Of a stretch of 64,000 nt of DNA, positions 9,862 to 64,000 are shown piece by piece. The notes under the pieces were generated by a model, which was given only the letters and a program-made list of their open reading frames with translations, ran no database searches and was not told where the DNA came from. Numbering within the stretch: the stretch's first letter is position 1; every line of letters begins with the position of its first letter. Made by a program: the position numbers and the translations under genes. The stretch covers positions 1,364,001-1,428,000 of the forward strand of contig NZ_CP095397.1 in the NCBI RefSeq assembly GCF_023008545.1. Direction: 5' to 3'. This DNA comes from Natribaculum luteum (GTDB taxonomy: Archaea; Halobacteriota; Halobacteria; Halobacteriales; Natrialbaceae).

Positions 9862-9973
9862 ACCGCCGTTCGCCGCGTTTTCGGTTATAAACTCTCGAGT
9901 CCGGATCAGGACAGTTGCGGCCACTCGAGTGCGAACCGACACCCCTTTTCCCCTCTCTCGCCCATCCTCGAGT

Positions 9974-10567
9974 ATGTACGTCGGACGATTCCTGGTCGTG
10001 GGACCCGAGGCTGGCGCGTACCGCGTCTCCTCGCGGTCGTTCCCGAACCGCCAGATCACCGCTCGAGACGACGCGCTCACCGTCTCGCCGACCGAAGACG
10101 CGCCGCCGACCGACAACCCGTACGTCTCGTACAACTGCCTTCGAGTCGTCGAGACGCCGACGGGCGAGACGGCGGCGTTCGGAAACGGCTCGCACGTCGA
10201 TCCGATCGCCGAGAAACTCGAGCTGGGGTATCCCGCCCGGGACGCCCTCGCGACGAGCCTGCTCGCGCTCGACTACGAGAAAGACGACTACGACACCCCG
10301 CGGATCGCGGCGACGATCGACGCCGACGGCGAGGCGTTGATCGGCACCGTTCGCAAAGACGCCCTGCTCGTCGAGACCGTCACGGAGCCGACGCTGGTCG
10401 CGACCTACGAGACGGATTCGCCCGAGGCGTTCGACTTCGAGGCGACGACGGCCGAAGCAGCCGCCCAGGACGCGTACGACCTCGAGTTCGAGCACGCGGT
10501 CTGTGCGGCTGGCGTCGCCCGCACCGAGGACGGGTTCGAGACGGCGATCGAGAACGGCGACGAGTAA
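9974..10567 (+). CDS. purO: IMP cyclohydrolase, archaeal type PurO
   Basis: A 197-residue enzyme that closes FAICAR to IMP in the last step of archaeal purine synthesis. It begins [12 protein letters not shown] and contains FPNRQI, the [10 protein letters not shown] segment and [13 protein letters not shown], all typical of the PurO Ntn-like fold, with the full family length. The ATG at 9974 is chosen because the upstream extension (77 codons) is antisense to the HNH pseudogene. It is followed 50 nt later by a phosphoesterase gene. Confidence 0.92.
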
Positions 10568-10617
10568 GCGCGTCGTCCCGGACAAACTACATATTTCTGG
10601 CGGGCTTCGATCCGGCT

Positions 10618-11277
10618 ATGCGAGTCGGACTCATCTCCGACGTCCACGCGAACCGGGTCGCTCTCGAGGCGGTCCTCGAGGACATGCCGTCGGTCGACGC
10701 GCTTGCCTGTGCGGGCGACGTCGTCGGCTACAACCCGTGGCCCGCGGCGTGCGTCGACGCGCTCCGGTCCCGTGACGTGCCGACGGTGATGGGCAACCAC
10801 GACCTGGCCGTCGTCGAGCGCAGTTCGTTTCGGTTCAACGAACTGGCCAGCGCCGGCGTCGAATACGCACAGCAGCAACTGGACGCCGAGCAGCGCCGCT
10901 GGCTCGAGTCGCTGCCGACCGAGCGTCGGGAGTTCGACGGGCGAGTGAAACTCGTCCACGGCCACCCGGACGATCCGAACCGCTACACCTACCCCGAGGA
11001 GTTCTCGCCGCGTCTGCTCGGCGACGAGGACGTGCTCGTGCTCGGACACACGCACGTCCAGCACGTCGAACGCTACGCCGAGGGGATCGTCGTCAATCCC
11101 GGCAGCGTCGGCCAGCCGCGCGACGGCGATCCCCGGGCCGCCTACGCCGTCGTCGACCTCGAGGCGATGACCGTCGACACCTGCCGCGTCGAGTACGACG
11201 TCGACGCCGTCCGAAAGACGGTCGAGGAGGCGAGACTCCCCGAGCGCATCGGGACGCGTCTGACCCGCGGGCAGTGA
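10618..11277 (+). CDS. Metallophosphoesterase (YfcE/MJ0936-like)
   Basis: A 219-residue calcineurin-like phosphoesterase. Metal-binding motifs are SDVHAN (residues 7-12), CAGDVVGYN, MGNHDLAV, LVHGHP and GHTHVQ, in correct order for a dinuclear metal site; NPGSVGQPRDGD is the usual C-terminal signature. Relatives hydrolyse phosphodiesters in vitro; the natural substrate is unknown. A TATA-like ACATATTT about 27 nt upstream suits the ATG at 10618. Confidence 0.9.
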   Translation: MRVGLISDVHANRVALEAVLEDMPSVDALACAGDVVGYNPWPAACVDALRSRDVPTVMGNHDLAVVERSSFRFNELASAGVEYAQQQLDAEQRRWLESLPTERREFDGRVKLVHGHPDDPNRYTYPEEFSPRLLGDEDVLVLGHTHVQHVERYAEGIVVNPGSVGQPRDGDPRAAYAVVDLEAMTVDTCRVEYDVDAVRKTVEEARLPERIGTRLTRGQ

Positions 11278-49095: not shown

Positions 49096-49240
49096 CGTGT
49101 CGATTCCTTCGACGGCCACGCTGGTCAACGTTTCCGTCGGCTTCGCCGTTCGCGTCCGCCTCGCCCGTCGGGGACATCTTATTGTGGCGTGAGCACATCT
49201 AGCAGTACGAGATGGGGTTCCCATCGAGAGGGTGTACACA

Positions 49241-51376
49241 ATGTCCAGTGACAAACGCGATCCGGTCAAGACGATCTGTCCCTACTGTGGCGTCGGCTGT
49301 GGTATCCAGGTCCAGCCGGGCGAGGAGCCCGGGGAGATGCGCTTTATGCCCTGGGGTGACGCACCGGTCAACGAGGGGCGGGTCTGTATCAAAGGCGGCG
49401 CGGCGACGGAGGTCGTCGATCACGAGGATCGACTCACGGAGCCGCTGATCAAAGAAGACGGCGAGTTCCGCGAGGCCACCTGGGAGGAGGCCTACGAGCG
49501 CGTCGTCTCCGAACTCGAGCGAATCCGCGATGAGTACGGCCCGGACGCGCTGGGCTTTTACGGCTCCTCGAAGGTGATGAACGAGGAGAACTACCTCCTC
49601 CAAAAACTCGCGCGCCGGTACGGCACGAACAACGTCGACAACTGCACCCGGATGTGCCACGCCTCGACGGTCTGGGCGCTTCGCACGAGTCTGGGGGCGG
49701 GTGCGATGACAAACAGCATGCGCGACCTCCGCGAGGAGGCCGACGTGTTCTGGATCCAGGGGGCGAACCCGGGCGAGCAACACCCGATCGCCAACAGCCA
49801 GTACTTCCGGCAGGCGGTGCTCGACGGCGCGACCGTCATCCAGGTCGACCCGCACGCGAACAAGACGACGCGGTCGTTTCAGATCGACGACACCGATCGC
49901 CACCAGCACCTCCAGTTGAACCCGGGGACCGACATCCCGCTCCTGAACATCGTCCTCAAGACGATCCTCGAGCACCACGAGGCTCATCCCGAGGACGGCT
50001 GGATCGACGAGGCGTTCGTCGAGGAACGTACGGAGGGCTTCGACCACCTGAAAGAGACCCTCGAGGAGTTCGACAAGGAGGCCGCGGCGGCGGAGTGTGG
50101 CCTCGAACTCGAGGAGATCGAACTCGCCGCCGAGAAGTACGCCGCGGCCGACAACGCCGCCATCTTCACGGGGATGGGGATGAGTCAGCACGCCTGCGGT
50201 GTCGACAACGTCCAGAACGAGATCAACCTGGCGCTGATCACGGGCAACGTCGGTCGCCCTGGAACGGGCGTCAACCCGCTGCGCGGCCAGAACAACGTCC
50301 AGGGGACCTGTGACGTCGGCGCGATGCCGAACGTCTTGCCTGGCTACCAGCTGGTCGACGACGACGAGGCCCGCGAGAGCGTCGAGGAGGTGTGGGGCTT
50401 CGAGGTGCCGCCCGAACCGGGGCTGACGAACGTCGAACTCTCACACGAGTTCGGCGAGACCGTCCACGGACTCTACGTGATGGGCGAAAACCCCGTGATG
50501 AGCGAACCCGACGCCAACCGCGTCGCCGAACGGATCGCGGACCTCGAGTTCGTCGTCGCCCAGGACATCTTCCTGACCGAGACCGCCGAGTACGCCGACG
50601 TGATCTTGCCCGCGACGACCTGGGCCGAACGCGGCGGCACCGTCACCAACACGGACCGACGCGTCCAGCGGATGCGCGGCGTCGAGAAAGTCCACGAGAA
50701 CACCAAACACGACCTCGAGATCGTCTCCGAGATCGGCATGCGGCTGTTCGGCCCGGACGAGTTCGACTTCGACGATCCCGAGGAGGTCTTCGAGGAACTG
50801 CGGCAGGTCTGTCCGATCTACCACGGGATGACCTACGACTTACTCGGCGAGGAGGGGCTCCACTGGCCCTGCTACGAACCCGGCGACGAGGGCGACCCGT
50901 TCCTCTACGAAGAGGAGTTCGACACCGAGAGCGGTCTCGGCCACATCGAGGGCGTCCGGCACACGCCGCCCGCGGAGACGCCCGACGAGGAGTACCCGCT
51001 GATCCTCACGACCGCCCGACTCGAGGAACACTACAACACGGGCACGATGAGCAGGCGCTCGCCGACGCTCAACCGCCAGACGCCGGAGAACTTCGTCGAC
51101 GTGCACCCGACCGACGCCGAACGGTACGGCATCGAGGACGGCGACCAGGTGCAACTCCGGTCGCGACGCGGCGAGATCACCGTCGAGGCGCACGTCACCG
51201 AGGACACCAAGGAGGGCGTCGTCTGGACGACGCCACACTTCGCGGCCGCCTCCGCCAACAAACTCACGAACGACGTGCTCGACGAGCGGGCGAAGATCCC
51301 CGAGTACAAGGCTGCGGCTGCCGAGATCGCGGTCGGACTCGACCCCGCCGACGCCGACTCGGCGGCCGACGACTGA
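49241..51376 (+). CDS. fdhA: Formate dehydrogenase alpha-like molybdopterin oxidoreductase
   Basis: A 711-residue molybdo/tungsto-bis-PGD enzyme. N-terminal [4Fe-4S] ligands are in CPYCGVGCG and the later RVCIKGG; the metal-binding Cys is expected in CTRMCHASTVWAL (Cys in place of Sec). MPT-binding regions include GANPGEQHP, GRPGTGVNPLRGQNN and ETAEYADVILPATTWAER. It matches FdhF/FdhA and assimilatory nitrate reductase-like groups; formate is the likely substrate. No electron-transfer subunit or accessory gene is beside it. ATG 49241 versus GTG 49232 is uncertain. Confidence 0.88.
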   Translation: MSSDKRDPVKTICPYCGVGCGIQVQPGEEPGEMRFMPWGDAPVNEGRVCIKGGAATEVVDHEDRLTEPLIKEDGEFREATWEEAYERVVSELERIRDEYGPDALGFYGSSKVMNEENYLLQKLARRYGTNNVDNCTRMCHASTVWALRTSLGAGAMTNSMRDLREEADVFWIQGANPGEQHPIANSQYFRQAVLDGATVIQVDPHANKTTRSFQIDDTDRHQHLQLNPGTDIPLLNIVLKTILEHHEAHPEDGWIDEAFVEERTEGFDHLKETLEEFDKEAAAAECGLELEEIELAAEKYAAADNAAIFTGMGMSQHACGVDNVQNEINLALITGNVGRPGTGVNPLRGQNNVQGTCDVGAMPNVLPGYQLVDDDEARESVEEVWGFEVPPEPGLTNVELSHEFGETVHGLYVMGENPVMSEPDANRVAERIADLEFVVAQDIFLTETAEYADVILPATTWAERGGTVTNTDRRVQRMRGVEKVHENTKHDLEIVSEIGMRLFGPDEFDFDDPEEVFEELRQVCPIYHGMTYDLLGEEGLHWPCYEPGDEGDPFLYEEEFDTESGLGHIEGVRHTPPAETPDEEYPLILTTARLEEHYNTGTMSRRSPTLNRQTPENFVDVHPTDAERYGIEDGDQVQLRSRRGEITVEAHVTEDTKEGVVWTTPHFAAASANKLTNDVLDERAKIPEYKAAAAEIAVGLDPADADSAADD

Positions 51377-54602: not shown

Positions 54603-55247
54603 GTGAGTCTGATCGCGATCGTCGACATCGCACACCCCGACCTCGCGTTGACGCCGACGATCCGCGCGTGCCCGGACGTGTCTATCGAAGCCGTCTCACA
54701 CAGCACGACGGATCCCGAGACGGGAATGTTCTTCTTCCTCGTCGAGGGTGCAGACGAGACGTTCGACGAGGCCCTCGAGCGAGACCACACGGTCGCAGCG
54801 TGGTCGCTCGTCGACGACCTCGGTTCGACGCGCCTCTACCGCCTCCAGCACACGGAGGGGACGAAACTCGTCTCGCCGAAGACCACAGAACTCGGTGGCC
54901 TGCTGCTGCGAGCCGAGAGCAACGACCGCGGCTGGACCGTCCGACTCCACCTCCCCGATCGAGAGGAACTCGCGACGCTGTGGGAGTACTGCGAGCACGA
55001 AGGCATCTCCTTCGAACTCTACCGGATGTTCCGTCGCGAGGAGTGGTCTGAGGGCATCTCGCCGGAACTGACCGACGAACAGCGCGTCGCACTGGTGACC
55101 GCTTACGAGGAGGGCTACTTCGAGGAGCCGCGTGAAACCTCTCTCGAGGAACTCGCCGACGTGCTCGACATCTCGCCGACGGCCGTCGGCGGCCGAATCC
55201 GTCGTGGTACCGGGCAGCTCGTCTCGACGACGTTGTTAGAGGAGTGA
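54603..55247 (+). CDS. Bacterio-opsin activator-type HTH regulator
   Basis: A 214-residue regulator with an N-terminal sensor-like region (VDIAHPDLALTPTIRACPDV) and a C-terminal HTH_10 domain: LTDEQRVALVTAYEEGYFEE then TSLEELADVLDISPTAVGGR. Such proteins control nearby metabolic genes in haloarchaea. The GTG at 54603 gives MSLIAIVDIAH. Its position next to the betaine-type genes makes it the best candidate regulator. Confidence 0.85.
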   Translation: MSLIAIVDIAHPDLALTPTIRACPDVSIEAVSHSTTDPETGMFFFLVEGADETFDEALERDHTVAAWSLVDDLGSTRLYRLQHTEGTKLVSPKTTELGGLLLRAESNDRGWTVRLHLPDREELATLWEYCEHEGISFELYRMFRREEWSEGISPELTDEQRVALVTAYEEGYFEEPRETSLEELADVLDISPTAVGGRIRRGTGQLVSTTLLEE

Positions 55248-55260
55248 TTTCCTGGAGCGG

Positions 55261-55617
55261 TCAAAACGCGGCGAGGTGGTCGTGGCGCGGCTCGTATAGC
55301 GCCCCGGTCATTCGCACCTCGTGGATCTCCTCGAGCGTCTCGCCGACGGAGCGGCCTCGCCTGGCCATCGCCGCGGCGACGACGCCGATCGGGACGCCCT
55401 CCTCGTACTCCGCCTCGAGTTCGGCGACGACCATCTCGAGGTCGTCCGTGTCCGGGACGTCGCCGTCGACGTCGGCTCGAGTCACCTCGACGTCGTGTCC
55501 GGTGTGGCGGTGGTGTCGCCGGTAGAACGCGACGATCTCGTTCGCACTTGCCGTCTCCCGGTCGACGCCACATGCCGTGCACGTGGCGGCGAACGGCGTC
55601 TGTCGTTGCTGGCTCAT
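55261..55617 (-). CDS. Zinc-motif and winged-helix protein in Rieske operon
   Basis: A 118-residue protein starting 9 nt after the Rieske gene's stop, so very likely its co-transcribed partner. Residues 13-17 are CTACG, with a His-rich patch (YRRHHRHTGHD) that could complete a metal site. Residues about 72-118 (EGVPIGVVAAAMARRGRSVG ... LYEPRHDHLAAF) resemble the C-terminal winged helix of archaeal MCM proteins. It could be a metal- or redox-sensing DNA-binding protein. Unknown otherwise. Confidence 0.72.
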   Translation of the reverse strand: MSQQRQTPFAATCTACGVDRETASANEIVAFYRRHHRHTGHDVEVTRADVDGDVPDTDDLEMVVAELEAEYEEGVPIGVVAAAMARRGRSVGETLEEIHEVRMTGALYEPRHDHLAAF

Positions 55618-55626
55618 GCGTTCGAC

Positions 55627-56778
55627 TCAGGCCTCGTAGGCCTCCTGTGCGAGGAGGTGGAACTTGTGGACGGTGTGCTCGTTGGGGCCAAGTTGCGCCT
55701 GTGCGAGCGCGCCGGATTTGAGCCCGCGGTACTGGCGCTCGACCAGCTCGAAGTCCTCCTCCTGGAGCTGGCGGCTCGTTCGGACGAACTCCGCTTCTTC
55801 CTCGCTCAGCTCGGAATCTTTGAAGTAGTAGTCTGCGACGAGCTGGAACCGTTCCTCGTCGATCGGGTCGATGAGGTAGGTCCCGTAGCCGTCGGCTGTC
55901 CCGTACATGTTGACCGTGAAGTTCGGCCACAGATAGTAGAACTTCGCCTCGTGTTCGTCGTGGATGCGCATCTCGTCGTCGACGTCCTCGGCGTGCGTGT
56001 AGTGTAACACCCAGTGGTAGTCGTTGACCTCGAGTTCGGATTCGTCGAGGGCGATGCCCGTGATCCAGTCCTGGTGGTTCGCCTGACAGTGGTCACACTC
56101 GGAGTAGTTCCCACCGAAGGTCTTCCAGTTGCACTCGACTTCCGAGACGATTCGACGAGCGAGCTGGTACTCCTCGAGTGGCAACGCCTCGAGTTCGGCT
56201 TTCATCTTCCCGGCCTGCTCGTCGAGGCTCATCGGCTCCTCGGCGAAGTTGACGAAGACGAACGGCCCGATTCGGTCGCTGCGGACTTCCATGAGCGCGT
56301 TCTCCCCGGCGTCGAGTTCGGCGACGTCCTCGTCCTCGAGGTCCGGGTTCAGCCGTGCGTCCTCGAAGCTCGCGGGCGTACTCGTGAGCGAGCCGTCGAG
56401 GTCGTACGTCCAGAGGTGGTACGGACACCGGATGCGCCGTGCGTTGTCGGGGTCGGTCATCGGCGTCTCGTCGACCATCGCCGAACCGCGGTGGGCACAG
56501 ACGTTGTAGAACGCCCGCACTTCGTCGTCGTGGTTGCGGACGACGATGATCTCGCGGTCGCCGATCGTCCGGGTGTAGTAATCGCCCACCTCGGGGATGC
56601 AGTTTGCGTGGCCAGCGTAGATCCAGTACTGGCCGAACACCTTCTCTTTCTCCATCTCGTAGACGTCAGGATCGGTGAAGTATCTCGCCGGCAGCGCGTT
56701 CGTCTCGTCGGTGATGTCCGGGCTGACGCGTTCTACCTCGTCGAGACCGTCGTTCCACCTGGTCATGCTGTATGCCAT
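55627..56778 (-). CDS. Rieske oxygenase, glycine betaine demethylase-like
   Basis: A 383-residue ring-hydroxylating-type oxygenase alpha subunit. Rieske motif CAHRGSAMV ... CPYHLWTYDLDGS (residues 91-118), mononuclear iron site NYSECDHCQANH. The E-C-x-H-C form of the iron site is typical of GbcA/stachydrine demethylase-type N-demethylases rather than aromatic dioxygenases. It would convert glycine betaine to dimethylglycine with a reductase partner that is not in the window. TATA CACTTATAGG lies upstream. It is divergent from the sarcosine-oxidase-like gene. Confidence 0.85.
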   Translation of the reverse strand: MAYSMTRWNDGLDEVERVSPDITDETNALPARYFTDPDVYEMEKEKVFGQYWIYAGHANCIPEVGDYYTRTIGDREIIVVRNHDDEVRAFYNVCAHRGSAMVDETPMTDPDNARRIRCPYHLWTYDLDGSLTSTPASFEDARLNPDLEDEDVAELDAGENALMEVRSDRIGPFVFVNFAEEPMSLDEQAGKMKAELEALPLEEYQLARRIVSEVECNWKTFGGNYSECDHCQANHQDWITGIALDESELEVNDYHWVLHYTHAEDVDDEMRIHDEHEAKFYYLWPNFTVNMYGTADGYGTYLIDPIDEERFQLVADYYFKDSELSEEEAEFVRTSRQLQEEDFELVERQYRGLKSGALAQAQLGPNEHTVHKFHLLAQEAYEA

Positions 56779-56818
56779 GGCATGGCGTAACGTCCAATAA
56801 GGGTTGATCGCAGGTAGT

Positions 56819-56833
56819 TCGCACCTATAAGTG
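56819..56833 (-). promoter_or_regulatory. Promoter core of the Rieske gene
   Basis: Minus strand CACTTATAGGTGCGA, about 43-55 nt before the ATG at 56778. The part TTATAGGTGCGA matches the promoter of the divergent gene except at one position. Confidence 0.5.
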
Positions 56834-56927
56834 ACGGCGGGCGCTCACGATCCAGCCGAAATGCTCGAACGCCTCGTTTCGCCACCGGCGCTCCGGTGTG
56901 TAGCGAACGGAGCGTCGTTCATCATTA

Positions 56928-56940
56928 TTTATAGGTCCGA
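56928..56940 (+). promoter_or_regulatory. Promoter core of the sarcosine-oxidase-like gene
   Basis: TTTATAGGTCCGA on the plus strand, about 50-62 nt before the ATG at 56990. Confidence 0.5.
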
Positions 56941-56989
56941 CGTGAGACATACTAACTATCAAGATCCCCGTCGTCGAATCGGCCAGCAC

Positions 56990-58144
56990 ATGACCGAGAC
57001 TGGAGATCGATACGACGTCGTCGTGATCGGCGTCGGCGGGATGGGCAGCGCGACGACCTACCACCTCGCACGGCGGGGCCTCGACGTGCTGGGACTCGAG
57101 CGATACGATATTCCCCACACCATGGGCTCGTCCCACGGGATCACGCGAATCATCCGCCGGGCGTACTACGAACACCCCTCCTACATCCCGCTCGTCGAGC
57201 GCGCGTACGACCTCTGGGACGACCTCGCCGCCGAGACCGGTCGTGACGTCATCCACCGCACGGGGTCGATCGACGCCGGCCCCGAAGGGAACGTCGTCTT
57301 CGAAGGGTCGCGCCGCTCCTGTGAGCAACACGACATCCCCCACGAGGTGCTCACGAGCGAGGAAGTGACCGAGCGCTTCCCGGGCTACCAGCTTCCAGAA
57401 GAGCACATGGCGGTCTACCAGCCCGACGGCGGCTTCGTCGTCCCGGAGCAGGCGATCGTCGGCCACGTCGAGGCGGCCCAGGCCGCAGGCGCAGACGTTC
57501 ACGGACGCGAGCAGGTCCACGACTGGACGGAGACGCCCGACGGCGGCGTCCGCGTCGAGACCGACCGGGGCACGTACGAGGCCGACCGGCTGGTGCTCGC
57601 GGCCGGCGCGTGGAACTACAAACTCGCCGACGCACTCGAGGGGCTGGCCGTCCCGGAGCGACAGGTGCTCGGCTGGTTCCAGCCGGAGACGCCCTCGACG
57701 TTCGAACCCGAGAACTTCCCCGTCTGGAACCTGCGCGTCCCCGAGGGCCGCTTCTACGGACTGCCGATCTACGACGTCCCGGGGATGAAACTCGGCAAGT
57801 ACCACCACCGCGACGAGCAGGTGGACCCGGACGACTACGAGACCGACCCCCAGCCCGAGGACGAACAGTTGCTGCGGGAGGTTACGGAAAACTACTTCCC
57901 CGAGGCCGCCGGCCCGACGATGCGACTGGCGACCTGTATGTTCACCAACTCCCCGGACGAACACTTCATCCTCGATACCCTCCCCGACCACCCACAGGTC
58001 GCCGTCGGTGCCGGTTTCTCCGGCCACGGCTTCAAGTTCGCCAGCGTGATCGGCGAGATCCTGGCCGACCTCGCCGCCGACGGCGACACCGATCACCCGA
58101 TCGAGATGTTCCGACTCGAGCGGTTCGACGACGGTCCAGAGTAG
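56990..58144 (+). CDS. Sarcosine oxidase / N-methylamino acid oxidase-like
   Basis: A 384-residue flavoprotein of the monomeric sarcosine oxidase/SolA family. FAD-binding motif VVVIGVGGMGSATTYHLARR (about residues 9-28), GSSHGITRIIRRAYYEHPSY (family signature), and CMFTNSPDEHFILD, in which Cys316 is in the place of the covalent-flavin Cys of monomeric sarcosine oxidase. It would oxidise sarcosine to glycine and formaldehyde; N-methyltryptophan or other N-methyl amino acids are alternatives. Context favours sarcosine. Confidence 0.88.
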   Translation: MTETGDRYDVVVIGVGGMGSATTYHLARRGLDVLGLERYDIPHTMGSSHGITRIIRRAYYEHPSYIPLVERAYDLWDDLAAETGRDVIHRTGSIDAGPEGNVVFEGSRRSCEQHDIPHEVLTSEEVTERFPGYQLPEEHMAVYQPDGGFVVPEQAIVGHVEAAQAAGADVHGREQVHDWTETPDGGVRVETDRGTYEADRLVLAAGAWNYKLADALEGLAVPERQVLGWFQPETPSTFEPENFPVWNLRVPEGRFYGLPIYDVPGMKLGKYHHRDEQVDPDDYETDPQPEDEQLLREVTENYFPEAAGPTMRLATCMFTNSPDEHFILDTLPDHPQVAVGAGFSGHGFKFASVIGEILADLAADGDTDHPIEMFRLERFDDGPE

Positions 58145-58191
58145 TCGCGAAACGCGGGTACTCTCGCGGACTTCTCCGACGCTCTCGCTCG

Positions 58192-58641
58192 CTACTCGCT
58201 TCCCCGGTCGCCCAGGACGCGCTCCTCGGGCGTCGGCCGCCCCGGGTGGATGCCGTAGCTCGCGAACAAGTAGAGCACCGTGACAGTGACTGCACACAGG
58301 GCCGCCGCCCCGGCGACCGCCTCGAGCGCGGCGACGGCAGGCCCGGAGAACGCGTCGCCGACCGCCGCGGCACTCTCGTTCGAGGGTGCCGTCGCGAGGC
58401 CGTACGGGAGGAAGGCGGCGAACGCGAGTATCCACCACCGCCTCGTGGCGCGGCGGAGGGTATCGACGGGCCAGTCGCTGACGGAACTGGCGATGCCGAA
58501 GAGGCCAGCGACGACCAGCAAGAGCGCAGGAATCGTTCGGAGGGTGGGAGCAAAGCCGTCGTTAACTGTGACGCCGAGTGCGACGACCCCAGCAGAAACC
58601 GCCAGGAGGAGCGTCGACAATGCGGGGAATCTGTGACGCAC
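58192..58641 (-). CDS. Small membrane protein, unknown function
   Basis: A 149-residue protein with four hydrophobic segments (residues 9-27, 37-53, 68-86 and 103-127). No signature is recognised. A GTG start at 58641 begins MRHRFPALSTLLLAV. It is convergent with the oxidase. Confidence 0.62.
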   Translation of the reverse strand: MRHRFPALSTLLLAVSAGVVALGVTVNDGFAPTLRTIPALLLVVAGLFGIASSVSDWPVDTLRRATRRWWILAFAAFLPYGLATAPSNESAAAVGDAFSGPAVAALEAVAGAAALCAVTVTVLYLFASYGIHPGRPTPEERVLGDRGSE

Positions 58642-58854
58642 GGTAATCCTGGTTACGCTGGATCGTACAAAACTCTCGCGAACCGCCGAACCGTCACTTT
58701 CGGTGAAGAAACGGTTCGCTGACCTCCCTCGCCGAACAACAAAGAACGTATTACCGGCGCGGACGAGACGAACGTGAGAACGAATGCGACTGGTCTCCGA
58801 ACGAACCGGCCGTGCGTACCGACGGACGCGCCGGTCACACCCTCTGCTGGACAG

Positions 58855-59274
58855 ATGAAACTGCTACGCCACCTCTGGAAACGTCACGTCTCGGGCCGTC
58901 CCGATCAGTACCAGGCGTACGTCTCCTTCCCGGCACAGGCTGACCGACCACCGGTCGGCGAGGTCCACGATCGGATCGAAGAACTGGAGTTCGCCTTCGA
59001 GGGTCGACTCGACGTCTACGCTCGAGTGGGGGCCCTCGCGGTCGTCACCGACCGCGTCCCGGCCGAGCACTTCGACCCGGAAGCGTTCGAGGCGATCCTC
59101 GAGCGAATCGAGGACGCATACGCCGAGACGCATCGACTCGCGCGGCTGGAAAAGTGGCGACGGATCGACGGTCGGCTCGTCAAGTCGTACGTCGTCGTTC
59201 CGGTCAAACCGCTATTTCCGCGCGACCGGACCGATCAGTCGGAGCAACTCGCGTCTCCGGCCGAGGCCGAGTGA
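58855..59274 (+). CDS. Conserved hypothetical protein
   Basis: A 139-residue soluble protein: KLLRHLWKRHVSGRPDQYQA, a beta-rich middle and an amphipathic helix FEAILERIEDAYAETHRLAR. No domain recognised. The ATG at 58855 is preferred over the arginine-rich extension from 58774. It is convergent with the channel-like gene. Confidence 0.6.
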   Translation: MKLLRHLWKRHVSGRPDQYQAYVSFPAQADRPPVGEVHDRIEELEFAFEGRLDVYARVGALAVVTDRVPAEHFDPEAFEAILERIEDAYAETHRLARLEKWRRIDGRLVKSYVVVPVKPLFPRDRTDQSEQLASPAEAE

Positions 59275-59289
59275 CCGGTCGAAGCGGCT

Positions 59290-60096
59290 TCAGTCGTCTT
59301 CTGCGCCCGGTCCGGGGCCGGGTTCGGAGCCGGGCTCCCGGTCGCGACCGGGCGATTCGCTGCCGGTGGGGCTCTCGCTTCGCGGACTGCTCTCGGTCGG
59401 CGTGATCGAACTCGTGCGACCCATCCACCGGTCGATGTTGTCGGCGACGTAGTCTTTGCCGCCCCAGCCGAAGGCGACGCCAGCGCCGATGGCTACGGCG
59501 GCCGCCAGTCCCCACGCGAGCGCTCGAGCGAAGACGTACAGGATGCCGACGTCGATGCCCATCGTGTCGAGACCGATGACGATCGCCGTGAAGTAGAGGA
59601 ATATCCTCGCGCCGTTGGCGAACCAGTTCGTGTACGCCATCTCCGTCGCAGCCCGGGTTCGCTCGATGACGTCACCGATGAAGTCGGCGACGACGAACCC
59701 GAGGACGATGACGAGCAGGCCAGCGACGAACGCCGGCAGGTACGAGACTGCCGTCGAGATCCACTCCGAGAGGGTCGGGATCGCCAGGGCGTTCGCGGCC
59801 GCCAGGATGGCGAGCGCGTAGACGAACCACTTCGCCAGCTTTCCGAACGCGCCGGAGACGGCCCGTTCGGTTCCGCCGAGCATTCGTCCGAGCGGCGTCT
59901 CGAGGACCATCCGGTCGAGTTCGACGCCGTCGGCGATCCGTCGGACGACCCCTGCGGCGAGGCGACCGATGATCCAGCCGATGAGGAGGATGACTACTGC
60001 CCCGATCAGCCGTGGCAGGAACGTGACCAACTCGGCCACAGGATCCTGCAACCACTCGGGAACCTGCACCTGTTGAGCGGGTTGAAGTCGTACCAT
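59290..60096 (-). CDS. Mechanosensitive channel-like membrane protein
   Basis: A 268-residue protein with four or five membrane segments in repeated TM-helix units (LPRLIGAVVILLIGWIIGRL, LPAFVAGLLVIVLGFVVADFIG), the pattern of the TM_helix group related to MscS. The MscS cytoplasmic domain is missing, replaced by a Ser/Pro/Glu-rich tail. It could sense or relieve osmotic pressure, fitting its place among osmolyte-catabolic genes. Confidence 0.75.
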   Translation of the reverse strand: MVRLQPAQQVQVPEWLQDPVAELVTFLPRLIGAVVILLIGWIIGRLAAGVVRRIADGVELDRMVLETPLGRMLGGTERAVSGAFGKLAKWFVYALAILAAANALAIPTLSEWISTAVSYLPAFVAGLLVIVLGFVVADFIGDVIERTRAATEMAYTNWFANGARIFLYFTAIVIGLDTMGIDVGILYVFARALAWGLAAAVAIGAGVAFGWGGKDYVADNIDRWMGRTSSITPTESSPRSESPTGSESPGRDREPGSEPGPGPGAEDD

Positions 60097-60950
60097 GCAC
60101 GTCGTGGTCGCCGTTTTCCGCTCTTCGGGTTTGTGCAGGCACTCTCAGGGTTGGAAAAAACAGTCAGACAACATAGCCGACACGACGAGTAAAGACTCTA
60201 TTACGACGAACTGTACGACGTACGGACAGTGACGATCTGGCACCGAACCGAAACGCTGTCGGCGCGCGAACGAACGTGAGTATCGTCGAGACTACAGGGC
60301 TGGACGCCGATAACAGTTTATTGGCGGTGGGTCGCGAACGCGGCGACGGAGCCCCGCTCGAGTTCGACGACTCGGATCGCCTCCGATCGACCGAACGTCT
60401 CAGTTTTCGCTCACTGTCCACGTGGGAATACGATACGAGATCGTTCGACGACCCTCGTTGGCCGTTTGCGACCTCTCTCGATCGTCGATCGACGGTTCGA
60501 ACCCGGACGAGGCCACCTCCGCCGAGAGCCCCCGCCGATTGTGGTACGACGGTTCGCATGCCGCCCAAGCGTCGCACGACGGCATCGAAGTGCGAACGTC
60601 GTGCGAGACCGTCGTCGATTCCGACGGTTCCAGTAACAAGCTATTACCGGCACTCCACGCCCATCTCTCGAGCCCGAGATAGACGTCCTGACCGACGTCG
60701 CCTGATACTACTGGACGACGGTGAGTACACACCCGATCGCGACTCGAGTGTGTCGCCGCCGGCGACGGCGGCTCGTGTACGGGCGGTGTGTGATCCGTGT
60801 CGTCTGGCGGTATGAATCCGAGCTCCGGCGTCGAGAAGACATGACCTCGTTCTCGAGTGCAGACCGTTCCTGTCGCGTCGCCGGCTGTTATACGGCACAG
60901 ATTATACACCCTGATAGCTATGCGGGAACGGGTGGCAGTGTCCATGTCAC
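60097..60950. other. Long intergenic region with repeat copy E
   Basis: About 850 nt between divergent genes. It contains copy E of the dispersed inverted repeat (60705-60813), a TATA-like GATTATACACC at 60899-60909 upstream of the dehydrogenase gene, and an ATAAC AGTTTATTGG stretch near 60310. Open frames through it are arginine/serine-rich and lack haloarchaeal character. Confidence 0.6.
60705..60813. repeat. Dispersed inverted-repeat element, copy E
   Basis: Left arm ATACTACTGGACGAC (60705-60719), right arm GTCGTCTGGCGGTAT (60799-60813); interior hairpin GTCGCC-GCC-GGCGAC matches the internal hairpin of copy B. The edge TGATACTACTGGAC is identical to the ends of copies B and D. Confidence 0.78.
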
Positions 60951-63461
60951 ATGAGTACAGGGAACACGATACCAGAGAGCGCAGGAACCGTCATCGTCGG
61001 TGCGGGCTGTGTCGGCTGTAGCGCCGCCTACCACCTCACCGAACTCGGTCGCGAGGACGTCGTCGTCGTCGATCAGGGGCCGCTGTTCGAGACCGGCGGC
61101 TCCACCTCGCACGCACCCGGGCTGGTGTTTCAGACCACCGGCGGCAAGCTGATGACGCGGATGGCGTCGTACACCCGCGACCTCTACTCGGACCTCGACG
61201 GCTTTCGAACCTGTGGCGGGATCGAGGTCGCCGCGACCGACGACCGCTGGGAGTACCTGAAACGAAAGCGCGAGTGGGGCCGATCCTACGGTCTCGAGGG
61301 GGGTCGGCTACTCTCGCCTGCGGAGGTCACAGAGTACGTTCCGCAGGTGAACGAGGACGCCATCCACGGCGGTTACTACGTTCCCACCGACGGGAAGGCC
61401 CACGCCGTCGACGCCTCGGCGACGATGGCGGAACGCGCCCGAGAGCGGGGAGCGCGCTTCTTCGGGGAGACGACGGTGACGGACCTCGAGACCAGCGGCG
61501 GCGAGCTCGAGGCCGTCGTCACCGACCGCGGCCGGATCGAGGCCGACGAGGTGCTCGTCGCGACCAACATCTGGGGCCCGCTGTTCGGTGAGATGGTCGA
61601 CGTCGATATCCCGCTCGTGCCCTGTGCCCACCAGTATCTCGTCTCGGACGAACTCGAGGCGCTCGACGGCGCGAGCCAGGAGATCGAACAGCCGATCTTG
61701 CGCCACCAGGACCAGTCGCTTTACTTCCGCCAGCACGGCGAGTCCTACGGCATCGGCTCGTACAACCACGAACCGCTTTTGGTCGATCCCGAGGACATCT
61801 ACGGCCCCGAGAAACTCGAGGATCTCGGCCTCGAGTACCCCTCGCTGCGGGAGTTCACCGAGGAGCACTTCTACGAGAACACCCACCCCGACCACGACCG
61901 GGCGGCCTACGACGCGGCCTGCGAACTCGTTCCCGAACTCCGGGACGCCGAGTTCGAGTCCGCGATCAACGGCATGTTCTGTTTCACGCCCGACGGTATG
62001 CCGATCCTGGGACCCACGGAAGAGATCGACGGCCTCTGGTGGGCGCTTGCGATCTGGGTCACCCAGTCCGGCGGCGCGGGGAACCTCGTCGCCCACTGGA
62101 TGGAAGACGGCGTCCCCCGCCTCGACGGCGAGCGCGTCGACGCGACGCCCGCGCACGTCTCGCGGTTCCAGCCCCACGCGGGGTCGCAGGCGTACACCCG
62201 AGGCCGGGGCGCACAGCAGTACCAGGAGGTCTACCAGCTGATTCACCCGCGCGAACAGCCCCAGGGACAGCGCTCGCTCCGCCGGAGTCCCTTCTACGAC
62301 CGCCAGAAAGAACTCGGTGCGGAGTTCTACGACGCGGGCGGCTGGGAAGTGCCGCAGTGGTACGAGACCAACGAGGCGCTGCTCGAGGAGTACGACGTGC
62401 CCGACAGGCCGGACTGGCTCGACCGCAACTGGTCGAAAGCACAGGGCGTCGAACACCAGGCCGTCCGTGACCGCGTCGCGATGGTCGACATGACCACCTA
62501 CACCGGGATCGAGGTGACCGGCGACGGCGCGACCGACCTCCTCCAGGGACTCCTGACGAACGACGTCGACGTCTCGCCGGGCCGGATTCGCTACGCGGCG
62601 ATGTGCAATGAGGACGGGGGGATCCTCGCCGACGTGACGGTCGCACGGCTCGCGGCCGACCGCTATATGGTGTTTACGGGCGGGGGCAACTCCGCGACGC
62701 TGCACTCGCGGTGGATCCGCGAGCACGCCCCCGACGACGGCTCCGTCTCGGTGACGACCCACGACTCGAGTATGTGCGGGATCGGCGTCTTCGGTCCCGA
62801 GGCGCGAAACGTCCTGTCGTCGCTCGTCGAGGCCGACCTCTCGAACGACGCCTTCCCCTTCTACACCGCCCAGGAGACGTACCTCGAGAGCATCCCAGTG
62901 ACGATGCTCAGGCTCTCCTACGCGGGCGAACTGGGCTGGGAACTGTACGCGCCGATGGAGTACGGCGCACAGCTCTGGGAGGCGATCGAAGACGCCGGCG
63001 AGGAGCACGGAATCGTCCCGATGGGCTGGGCGGCCCTCGACTCGACGAGCATGGAGAAAGGGTTCCGGCTGTGGGGAACCGACGTCACACCCGAGTACGA
63101 TCCCTACGAGGCCGGGATCGGCTTCGCCGTCGACCTCGAGACCGACTTCGTGGGCAAGGAGGCGCTGCTCGAGACTCGCGAGGCGGGGATCGACCGGCAG
63201 ATCACGCCGATCACGCTCGACGAACCCGGGGCCGTCGTCGACGCGGGCCACCCCGTGATGGACGGCGACGACGTGCTCGGCTACGTCGCTCGCGCGGACT
63301 ACGGCTACGCGATCGACGCCGGGATCGCCTACGCCTACCTGCCGGCCGAGTACGCCGAAGCCGGTCGAGCCCTCGAGATCAGCTACGAGAACGAACGTCT
63401 CCCGGCGACGGTGCGGGACGAACCGCTGTTCGATCCCGACCGCGAGAAGATGCTCCGCTGA
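60951..63461 (+). CDS. Dimethylglycine/sarcosine dehydrogenase-like flavoprotein
   Basis: An 836-residue two-domain enzyme. N-terminal FAD oxidoreductase: VIVGAGCVGCSAAYHLTELG and GGSTSHAPGLVFQTTGG, where His54 is in the position flavinylated in dimethylglycine dehydrogenases. The C-terminal half (from about residue 440) is a GcvT/T-protein domain (VRDRVAMVDMTTYTGIEVTG, SYAGELGWELYAP, GWAALDSTSMEKGFRLWG) that binds tetrahydrofolate-type one-carbon carriers. It would demethylate dimethylglycine or sarcosine, passing formaldehyde to folate. Four nt before the next gene. Confidence 0.9.
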   Translation: MSTGNTIPESAGTVIVGAGCVGCSAAYHLTELGREDVVVVDQGPLFETGGSTSHAPGLVFQTTGGKLMTRMASYTRDLYSDLDGFRTCGGIEVAATDDRWEYLKRKREWGRSYGLEGGRLLSPAEVTEYVPQVNEDAIHGGYYVPTDGKAHAVDASATMAERARERGARFFGETTVTDLETSGGELEAVVTDRGRIEADEVLVATNIWGPLFGEMVDVDIPLVPCAHQYLVSDELEALDGASQEIEQPILRHQDQSLYFRQHGESYGIGSYNHEPLLVDPEDIYGPEKLEDLGLEYPSLREFTEEHFYENTHPDHDRAAYDAACELVPELRDAEFESAINGMFCFTPDGMPILGPTEEIDGLWWALAIWVTQSGGAGNLVAHWMEDGVPRLDGERVDATPAHVSRFQPHAGSQAYTRGRGAQQYQEVYQLIHPREQPQGQRSLRRSPFYDRQKELGAEFYDAGGWEVPQWYETNEALLEEYDVPDRPDWLDRNWSKAQGVEHQAVRDRVAMVDMTTYTGIEVTGDGATDLLQGLLTNDVDVSPGRIRYAAMCNEDGGILADVTVARLAADRYMVFTGGGNSATLHSRWIREHAPDDGSVSVTTHDSSMCGIGVFGPEARNVLSSLVEADLSNDAFPFYTAQETYLESIPVTMLRLSYAGELGWELYAPMEYGAQLWEAIEDAGEEHGIVPMGWAALDSTSMEKGFRLWGTDVTPEYDPYEAGIGFAVDLETDFVGKEALLETREAGIDRQITPITLDEPGAVVDAGHPVMDGDDVLGYVARADYGYAIDAGIAYAYLPAEYAEAGRALEISYENERLPATVRDEPLFDPDREKMLR

Positions 63462-63465
63462 CGCC

Positions 63466-64000
63466 ATGAGCCAGGACTACCGGACCGTCGCGTACGAGGA
63501 CGTCGAGGCCGCCCGCGAGCGACTCGACGACGAGTCGGTCGTCAAGCACACGCCGGTCGAGCGGAGCACCTCGCTCGACGAACTAACCGGCGGCGAGGTG
63601 CACCTGAAGATGGAACACCTCCAGTGGACGGGCTCGTTCAAGACCCGCGGCGCGTACAACAAGATTGCCCAGTGTGCCGACGACGTCGATCGCGTCGTCG
63701 CGGCGAGCGCCGGAAATCACGCCCAGGGCGTCGCGCTCGCGGCGACCAAACTCGGAGTGGAGTCGACCATCGTCATGCCCCGGAGTGCGCCACAGGCCAA
63801 AGTCGACGCGACCCGAGACTACGGTGCAGACGTCGAACTCGTCGGGAGCGACTTCCGAGAGGCGATGGTCCACGCTCAGGGACTCGTCGACGACGACGCC
63901 GAGTTCGTCCACGCCTACGACGACCCGGCCATCGTCGCCGGCCAGGGAACCCTCGGGATCGAGATGTACGAGGACCTCCCCGACGTCGACACCGTCGTCG
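63466..64000 (+). CDS. ilvA: Threonine/serine dehydratase, 5' part
   Basis: The first 178 codons of a PLP enzyme cut by the window edge. VVKHTPVERSTSLDELTGG, the PLP-lysine motif SFKTRGAYNK, SAGNHAQGVALAATKLGV and AYDDPAIVAGQGTLGIEM mark the serine/threonine dehydratase family (fold type II). It starts 4 nt after the dehydrogenase, so they form an operon; serine deamination to pyruvate would drain glycine-derived carbon. Threonine dehydratase for isoleucine synthesis is the alternative. Confidence 0.9.
   Translation, partial: MSQDYRTVAYEDVEAARERLDDESVVKHTPVERSTSLDELTGGEVHLKMEHLQWTGSFKTRGAYNKIAQCADDVDRVVAASAGNHAQGVALAATKLGVESTIVMPRSAPQAKVDATRDYGADVELVGSDFREAMVHAQGLVDDDAEFVHAYDDPAIVAGQGTLGIEMYEDLPDVDTVV

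Follow-up and report, generated by a model that had tools for sequence, protein, structure and literature searches.

Among the organic osmolytes of brines, glycine betaine is a major one, and the diet of haloarchaea is usually described in terms of amino acids, sugars and glycerol. Does a gene cluster of Natribaculum luteum, a member of the Natrialbaceae, serve to use betaine as food? The cluster occupies the end of a 64,000-nucleotide stretch (1364001-1428000) of the 4.6 Mb genome; this stretch is referred to here as the window, and the original prediction read it as a route from betaine to pyruvate. We consider it probable, judging from gene content and genomic context, that the cluster encodes a pathway dedicated to breaking down glycine betaine together with the lower N-methylglycines. 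Its role in N-methylglycine catabolism is well supported, while the first step, from betaine to dimethylglycine, is the weakest part of this reading.

In the proposed scheme, betaine would be taken up by a BCCT transporter, and a Rieske oxygenase receiving electrons from a general ferredoxin or reductase would hydroxylate one of its methyl groups, giving dimethylglycine and formaldehyde. A fusion enzyme related to dimethylglycine oxidase (DMGO) would then produce sarcosine, with its GcvT domain trapping the one-carbon unit as methylene-tetrahydrofolate, and sarcosine would be converted to glycine by an enzyme of the monomeric sarcosine oxidase (MSOX) type or, in other genomes, by a second DMGO. 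A dedicated SHMT would combine glycine and methylene-tetrahydrofolate into serine, from which a dehydratase and RidA would release pyruvate and ammonia. We observed directly which genes are present, that their active sites are intact, that their linkage is conserved, and how they co-occur and replace one another; from this we infer the oxygenase substrate, the electron donor, the direction of flux and the joint action of the genes.

Gene content of the locus

All genes named in the original prediction were located where it had placed them, intact and with their catalytic residues kept, in the window and contig sequence. A Bat/HTH_10 transcription regulator (54603-55247, plus strand; PF04967 1.4e-14, PF15915 7e-13), probably a local one, adjoins the cluster here, as it does at roughly half of all Rieske loci. 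The Rieske non-haem iron oxygenase gene (55627-56778, minus strand; PF00355, PF00848) is followed directly, after a 9-bp gap, by a gene for a small HVO_B0008-family protein (55261-55617, minus strand; PF25214/PF25215) that had previously gone unmentioned. Beyond the MSOX-type flavoenzyme (56990-58144, plus strand; PF01266) and an MscS-like channel (59290-60096, minus strand), the DMGO gene (60951-63461, plus strand; PF01266, PF16350, PF01571, PF08669) fuses an FAD domain to a GcvT folate domain, and a serine/threonine dehydratase gene (63466-64692, plus strand) begins 4 bp after it and runs past the window end at 64000. The lack of a betaine transporter reported earlier is true within the window, but a BCCT gene (65090-66733) lies 397 bp past the dehydratase end, just outside it, and genes for SHMT (67871-69115, minus strand) and a RidA deaminase (69298-69678) are found farther out on the contig.

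The channel is present as predicted but stands outside the conserved set. Together with its two small neighbours, orf149 and orf166, it was rejected as a pathway component, being missing from most loci and from that of Natribaculum breve, the nearest named relative, which is congeneric and has a 97% identical oxygenase. The gene for a formate dehydrogenase-like alpha subunit (window positions 49232-51376) precedes the cluster by some 3 kb. Its product could dispose of formate from demethylation; it was not retained as a cluster member, since its linkage is unconserved outside the genus, bar one distant DMGO locus.

The DMGO aligns over its full length with the Arthrobacter dimethylglycine oxidase (1pj5, 2e-185) and, less closely, matches the mammalian dimethylglycine dehydrogenase (3e-108). 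Its FAD oxidase, FAO_M, GcvT and GcvT_C domains are all present, and it retains the GSTSH catalytic histidine as well as the folate-domain Asp that is altered in the 3gsi variant. The MSOX-type enzyme is nearer to MSOX (1el5, 7e-91) than to the N-methyltryptophan oxidase MTOX (6e-63), and residues equivalent to MSOX Cys315, Lys265, His269, Arg49, Arg52 and Lys348 are all aligned. The first of these is the covalent flavin attachment site, as had been predicted for this protein, and the others bind substrate or activate oxygen. Curated models leave an ambiguous assignment between sarcosine oxidase (TIGR01377, 328 bits, below the cut-off of 480) and N-methyltryptophan oxidase (NF008425, 514 bits, above the cut-off of 257). 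The dehydratase matches TIGR01127 over its full length (452 bits, cut-off 379), and both SHMT and RidA score above the cut-offs of their models (a subfamily model and TIGR00004, respectively). For the transporter, the betaine-uptake model NF047988 scores best at 453 bits (cut-off 650), compared with 303 for BetT and 269 for CaiT, and the subfamily model TIGR00842 reaches 412 bits against a cut-off of 408. The SHMT of the locus is the second of two copies in the genome (75% between them), and for the dehydratase there are three close paralogues, of which this is the third. Such extra copies are consistent with a dedicated catabolic role.

The oxygenase belongs to group V by sequence but, by model score and key residue, lies outside the GbcA family

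The oxygenase has the Rieske ligands C94/H96/C118/H121, an iron site formed by H230/H235/D342, a bridging E227 and the cysteine pair C228/C231. A bridging glutamate and a cysteine pair near the iron are marks of the group V, or quaternary-ammonium, Rieske enzymes (PMC10952381, PMC7948474). The aromatic reference enzymes have Asp in place of this glutamate and no cysteine pair, and they are separated from group V in the tree with support of 100/99. By these sequence features the oxygenase is a group V enzyme.

The earlier description of the protein as GbcA-like needs correction as to family. With the GbcA model NF058607 it scores 139 bits against a cut-off of 670, a threshold that is also missed by CntA (154), Stc2 (497) and GbcA-type proteins (411-529). 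Every haloarchaeal member that has a catalytic site carries Tyr at the position of CntA residue 203, where Stc2, GbcA and their relatives have Asn. According to the published residue rule, Tyr203 marks group Va (carnitine, choline and benzalkonium) and Asn marks group Vb (betaine and stachydrine) (PMC7948474), which makes the oxygenase group Va-like. On model score and key residue, membership in GbcA was rejected. The closest PDB match is the carnitine monooxygenase CntA (6y8j, 1.3e-42), of whose pocket only Tyr203 and Asn270 are kept, with Tyr225, Phe258, Tyr295, Tyr315 and Phe319 not conserved. In a tree of 41 proteins, the haloarchaeal oxygenases form their own clade (100/99), while Stc2 and GbcA share another (100/100) and CntA falls in a third. 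The reference set is thin, as it includes neither plant choline monooxygenase nor OxyBAC nor a GbcA of tested activity, so that the deep branching order is tentative. An approximately unbiased (AU) test rejected a clade with CntA (p=0.014) and did not reject one with GbcA/Stc2 (p=0.23); the former result, along with the pocket residues, rules out membership in CntA. An AF2 model of the oxygenase had a mean pLDDT of 59 and was left out of interpretation.

Because the oxygenase falls outside the GbcA family, its assignment to betaine comes from genomic context, which makes betaine its likely substrate. A likely mis-annotation is corrected here: the protein would be a betaine demethylase by context and not a GbcA. 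If the substrate is indeed betaine, the enzyme breaks the published Tyr/Asn rule.

As the original prediction had remarked, the locus has no dedicated reductase for the Rieske enzyme, nor is one conserved across the haloarchaeal loci, and a search of the genome returned just two FNR-type (PF00970) proteins, in which no fused 2Fe-2S domain was visible. A reductase gene adjoins the oxygenase in the bacterial group V loci examined. With no conserved reductase and no FNR-type protein showing a 2Fe-2S domain, a general ferredoxin is the proposed electron donor.

Two further groups of related oxygenases were observed. A sister clade with about 44% identity is found without the HVO_B0008-family protein (loci L111:8004-9101 and L059:9782-10885). 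Its Haladaptatus member sits among genes for acyl-CoA ligase, enoyl-CoA hydratase, BCCT and an FAD oxidoreductase, a setting that suggests another quaternary amine for that branch. On Ruegeria and Mesorhizobium plasmids, Tyr203-type group V oxygenases occur beside racemase genes and FAD-dependent oxidoreductases of about 824 aa, a DMGO-like length (L120:2297-6077 and L122:1555-6095), and these loci are a candidate bacterial parallel.

Conservation across Halobacteria

We searched a class sample of 242 Halobacteria genomes at E<1e-30 and found the oxygenase in 36, of which 34 have the type described here. The same genes recur around it in varied orders in at least four families, so that the gene neighbourhood proposed for checking is kept, though rearranged. 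DMGO occurs in 78 of the 242 genomes, and every one of the 34 that have the oxygenase is among them (Fisher 4e-20, phylogeny uncorrected), and in the remaining 44 of these 78 a core of DMGO, dehydratase and BCCT is present without the oxygenase. The betaine-to-pyruvate reading gains a conserved locus, a transporter and an SHMT, although betaine is assigned to its oxygenase by context rather than by family.

Folate one-carbon genes often accompany the set. In Haloprofundus salinisoli, a single run contains FolP, PurU, RidA, SHMT, BCCT, dehydratase, DMGO, FolD, a second DMGO, the Rieske oxygenase, the HVO_B0008-family protein and a second Rieske gene. Near the loci on pNG700 and pHTUR02 are genes for dihydropteroate synthase, formate-tetrahydrofolate ligase or deformylase, FolE, MTHFR, DHFR, FolD or PabAB. 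Such genes match the needs of a pathway in which methyl groups are transferred to tetrahydrofolate. The loci of some Natrialbaceae also encode a GbsB-like choline dehydrogenase along with a betaine-aldehyde dehydrogenase, for example next to the oxygenase pair in the Haloterrigena turkmenica-type genome G181 (L046:4579-7557), which indicates that choline oxidation has other enzymes there. A protein family that is about 400 aa long and matches nothing in Pfam is also seen near the Rieske/DMGO cluster in roughly one third of loci (L110:18173-19402 and relatives).

Of the 242 genomes, the 34 that have the oxygenase all encode the HVO_B0008-family protein next to it, and no others do; the protein was not found in 16 DMGO loci lacking the oxygenase. 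Two Haloarcula loci have flanks that are 90-93% identical, with the Rieske and HVO_B0008 genes alone missing in one of them. The same two genes are absent from an otherwise matching locus in another genome (G197), where the MSOX gene abuts the regulator gene. These clean absences imply that the pair behaves as one cassette, added on to the rest. The protein has an N-terminal part resembling a metal site (CxxC...RRH..TGH) and a C-terminal winged-helix-like part. Its AF2 model (pLDDT 92) gives weak PDB matches, mostly to winged-helix regulators, which favours a role in local regulation over one as a structural partner of the oxygenase. A function as the reductase was discarded given this resemblance and the lack of a redox motif.

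Replacement patterns agree with two later demethylations and suggest another possible entry step

An MSOX gene is present in 34 of 43 single-DMGO loci and in none of 18 double-DMGO loci (the two locus sets overlap). Such exclusivity is expected if two later N-demethylations are needed and the second DMGO can take sarcosine.

A DmdA-like protein of the GcvT family was identified in 52 genomes, all inside the 78 with DMGO: Haloarcula marismortui (pNG700, L109:6941-8317) and 51 others. It scores 245 bits with the DMSP demethylase model, under the cut-off of 410, and its gene frequently adjoins an MTHFR homologue. Among the 78 DMGO genomes, 24 have only the oxygenase, 42 only the DmdA-like protein, 10 both and 2 neither (Fisher p=4e-10, phylogeny uncorrected). 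Thus 42 of the 44 DMGO genomes without the oxygenase have the DmdA-like protein, and either this or the oxygenase pair is found in 76 of 78. We infer that the DmdA-like protein may provide an alternative, folate-dependent entry step, with DMSP as a possible substrate. With a complete gene set for the proposed use of betaine in about one seventh of the sampled Halobacteria (34/242) and a second entry module in others, this use is testable in culturable species.

Complementary oxygenase paralogues in Natronococcus

Eight of the 34 genomes encode another, shorter oxygenase copy nearby, with Cys-to-Ser and His-to-Arg changes at the Rieske ligands and the second Rieske ligand loop deleted, while the iron site is intact. 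Natronococcus and its close relatives show the converse in the other copy, which lacks the whole NYSECDHCQANH segment and keeps its Rieske site, and a full-length copy is absent from both Natronococcus-type genomes of the class sample. These complementary paralogues are in tandem, for example in Natronococcus jeotgali (L100:8307-9398 and 9962-11011) and also in L101-L103, L105 and L058. By the NG86 method, a simple one for dS on GC-rich genes such as these, dN/dS in the Rieske-only copy is 0.05-0.26 for the Rieske region and 0.26-0.70 for the catalytic region, as compared with 0.18-0.60 and 0.02-0.17, respectively, in the iron-only copy. Given this mirror-image, region-specific purifying selection, we rejected the reading of the degenerate paralogues as pseudogenes.

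Electron transfer in CntA passes between neighbouring subunits (PMC7948474), so a hetero-oligomer of both paralogues would have complete sites at its mixed interfaces, and we suggest that the Natronococcus proteins may form one. Since one subunit would carry only the Rieske cluster and the other only the mononuclear iron, electrons would flow only between subunits, and the pair would be a natural test of intersubunit-only transfer in Rieske oxygenases. A tentative joint proposal, on whose full correctness we lean slightly to the doubtful side, would combine a separate haloarchaeal subfamily of Rieske betaine demethylases with an obligate HVO_B0008-family partner and no dedicated reductase, an obligate heteromer of two half-dead alpha subunits in Natronococcus, and a DmdA-like methyltransferase replacing the oxygenase as the entry step elsewhere.

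Alternative explanations

The oxygenase might instead act on another quaternary amine, such as choline, carnitine/gamma-butyrobetaine or a methylated amino acid, leaving DMGO, MSOX, SHMT and the dehydratase alone as the N-methylglycine pathway. This we consider unlikely, though several observations speak for it: Tyr occupies the CntA-203 position as in CntA and choline monooxygenase (Phe in OxyBAC) (PMC7948474), CntA is the best solved relative, and the 44% sister in Haladaptatus lies among acyl-CoA genes. However, five CntA pocket residues (Tyr225, Phe258, Tyr295, Tyr315 and Phe319) are not conserved, and the tree test rejected a clade with CntA at p=0.014. If choline were the substrate, the product would be betaine aldehyde hydrate, but most loci show no betaine-aldehyde dehydrogenase, and where this enzyme is seen a GbsB-type choline dehydrogenase is present too. 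The strict association of the oxygenase with DMGO also argues against a different amine. A further alternative is a cleavage of betaine in the fashion of CntA, in which the bond between the nitrogen and the acetate carbon would be split to give trimethylamine and glyoxylate with no demethylation. The Tyr203-type site is compatible with this chemistry, as CntA anchors the ammonium and not the carboxylate (PMC7948474), and the pHTUR02 locus has a gene for malate synthase nearby. We give it very little credence nonetheless: the DMGO and sarcosine oxidase of the locus would be left with nothing to supply dimethylglycine, a malate synthase gene is not a generally conserved neighbour, and the CntA pocket is not kept.

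That the oxygenase is linked by chance, with the cluster consuming external dimethylglycine, sarcosine or creatine-derived sarcosine, would agree with the 44 of 78 DMGO genomes in which the DMGO-dehydratase-BCCT core does without it. Yet the oxygenase accompanies DMGO throughout the sample (34/34) and stays adjacent through rearrangements, and the DmdA-like protein is present in 42 of the 44 genomes that lack it, which renders an unrelated oxygenase quite improbable.

Comparison with known systems

The bacterial route begins with GbcA/GbcB and continues with DgcAB and sarcosine oxidase. As in Pseudomonas and Chromohalobacter, the haloarchaeal locus is proposed to carry out the same reaction series, with a bridging glutamate and cysteine pair in the oxygenase and transporter and one-carbon folate genes nearby. 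It differs in that the oxygenase falls outside the GbcA model and, in the tree obtained, outside the GbcA/Stc2 clade, that its residue at the CntA-203 position is Tyr instead of Asn, and in the lack of a GbcB-type hybrid-cluster reductase, which the GbcA-type genes examined do adjoin. Instead of bacterial Dgc and a heterotetrameric SoxBDAG, haloarchaea have the DMGO fusion and a monomeric MSOX. CntA/CntB (YeaWX) offers the nearest solved structure, with equivalents of Glu205, Cys206/209, Tyr203 and Asn270, but pocket residues otherwise differ and the haloarchaeal loci have neither a CntB reductase nor a semialdehyde dehydrogenase.

For the split oxygenase pair, the nearest precedent is the caffeine N7-demethylase NdmCDE (PMC4408171), in which an alpha subunit without a Rieske cluster likewise depends on another protein to supply it. 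There the Rieske domain has shifted into the reductase, whereas Natronococcus keeps it in a full-length paralogue that has lost its iron site.

The Arthrobacter cluster for DMGO and sarcosine oxidase (Meskys et al. 2001, as cited in PMC3102087) similarly brings together a GcvT-domain DMGO, sarcosine oxidation and folate one-carbon handling; the haloarchaeal clusters differ in using a monomeric sarcosine oxidase or second DMGO, a Rieske first step and an archaeal host. From haloarchaeal DMGO genes near BCCT genes, Anderson et al. (2011) proposed a possible use of betaine, dimethylglycine or sarcosine, and the same source gives H. walsbyi as unstimulated by betaine and H. utahensis as showing no growth on it (PMC3102087), which cautions against inferring function from DMGO and BCCT alone. 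The part of that report drawn on here does not describe the oxygenase, sarcosine oxidase, SHMT, RidA, the folate link or the HVO_B0008-family partner. The present analysis adds the oxygenase with this partner and the remaining steps of the route, as well as an alternative entry module and the split pair.
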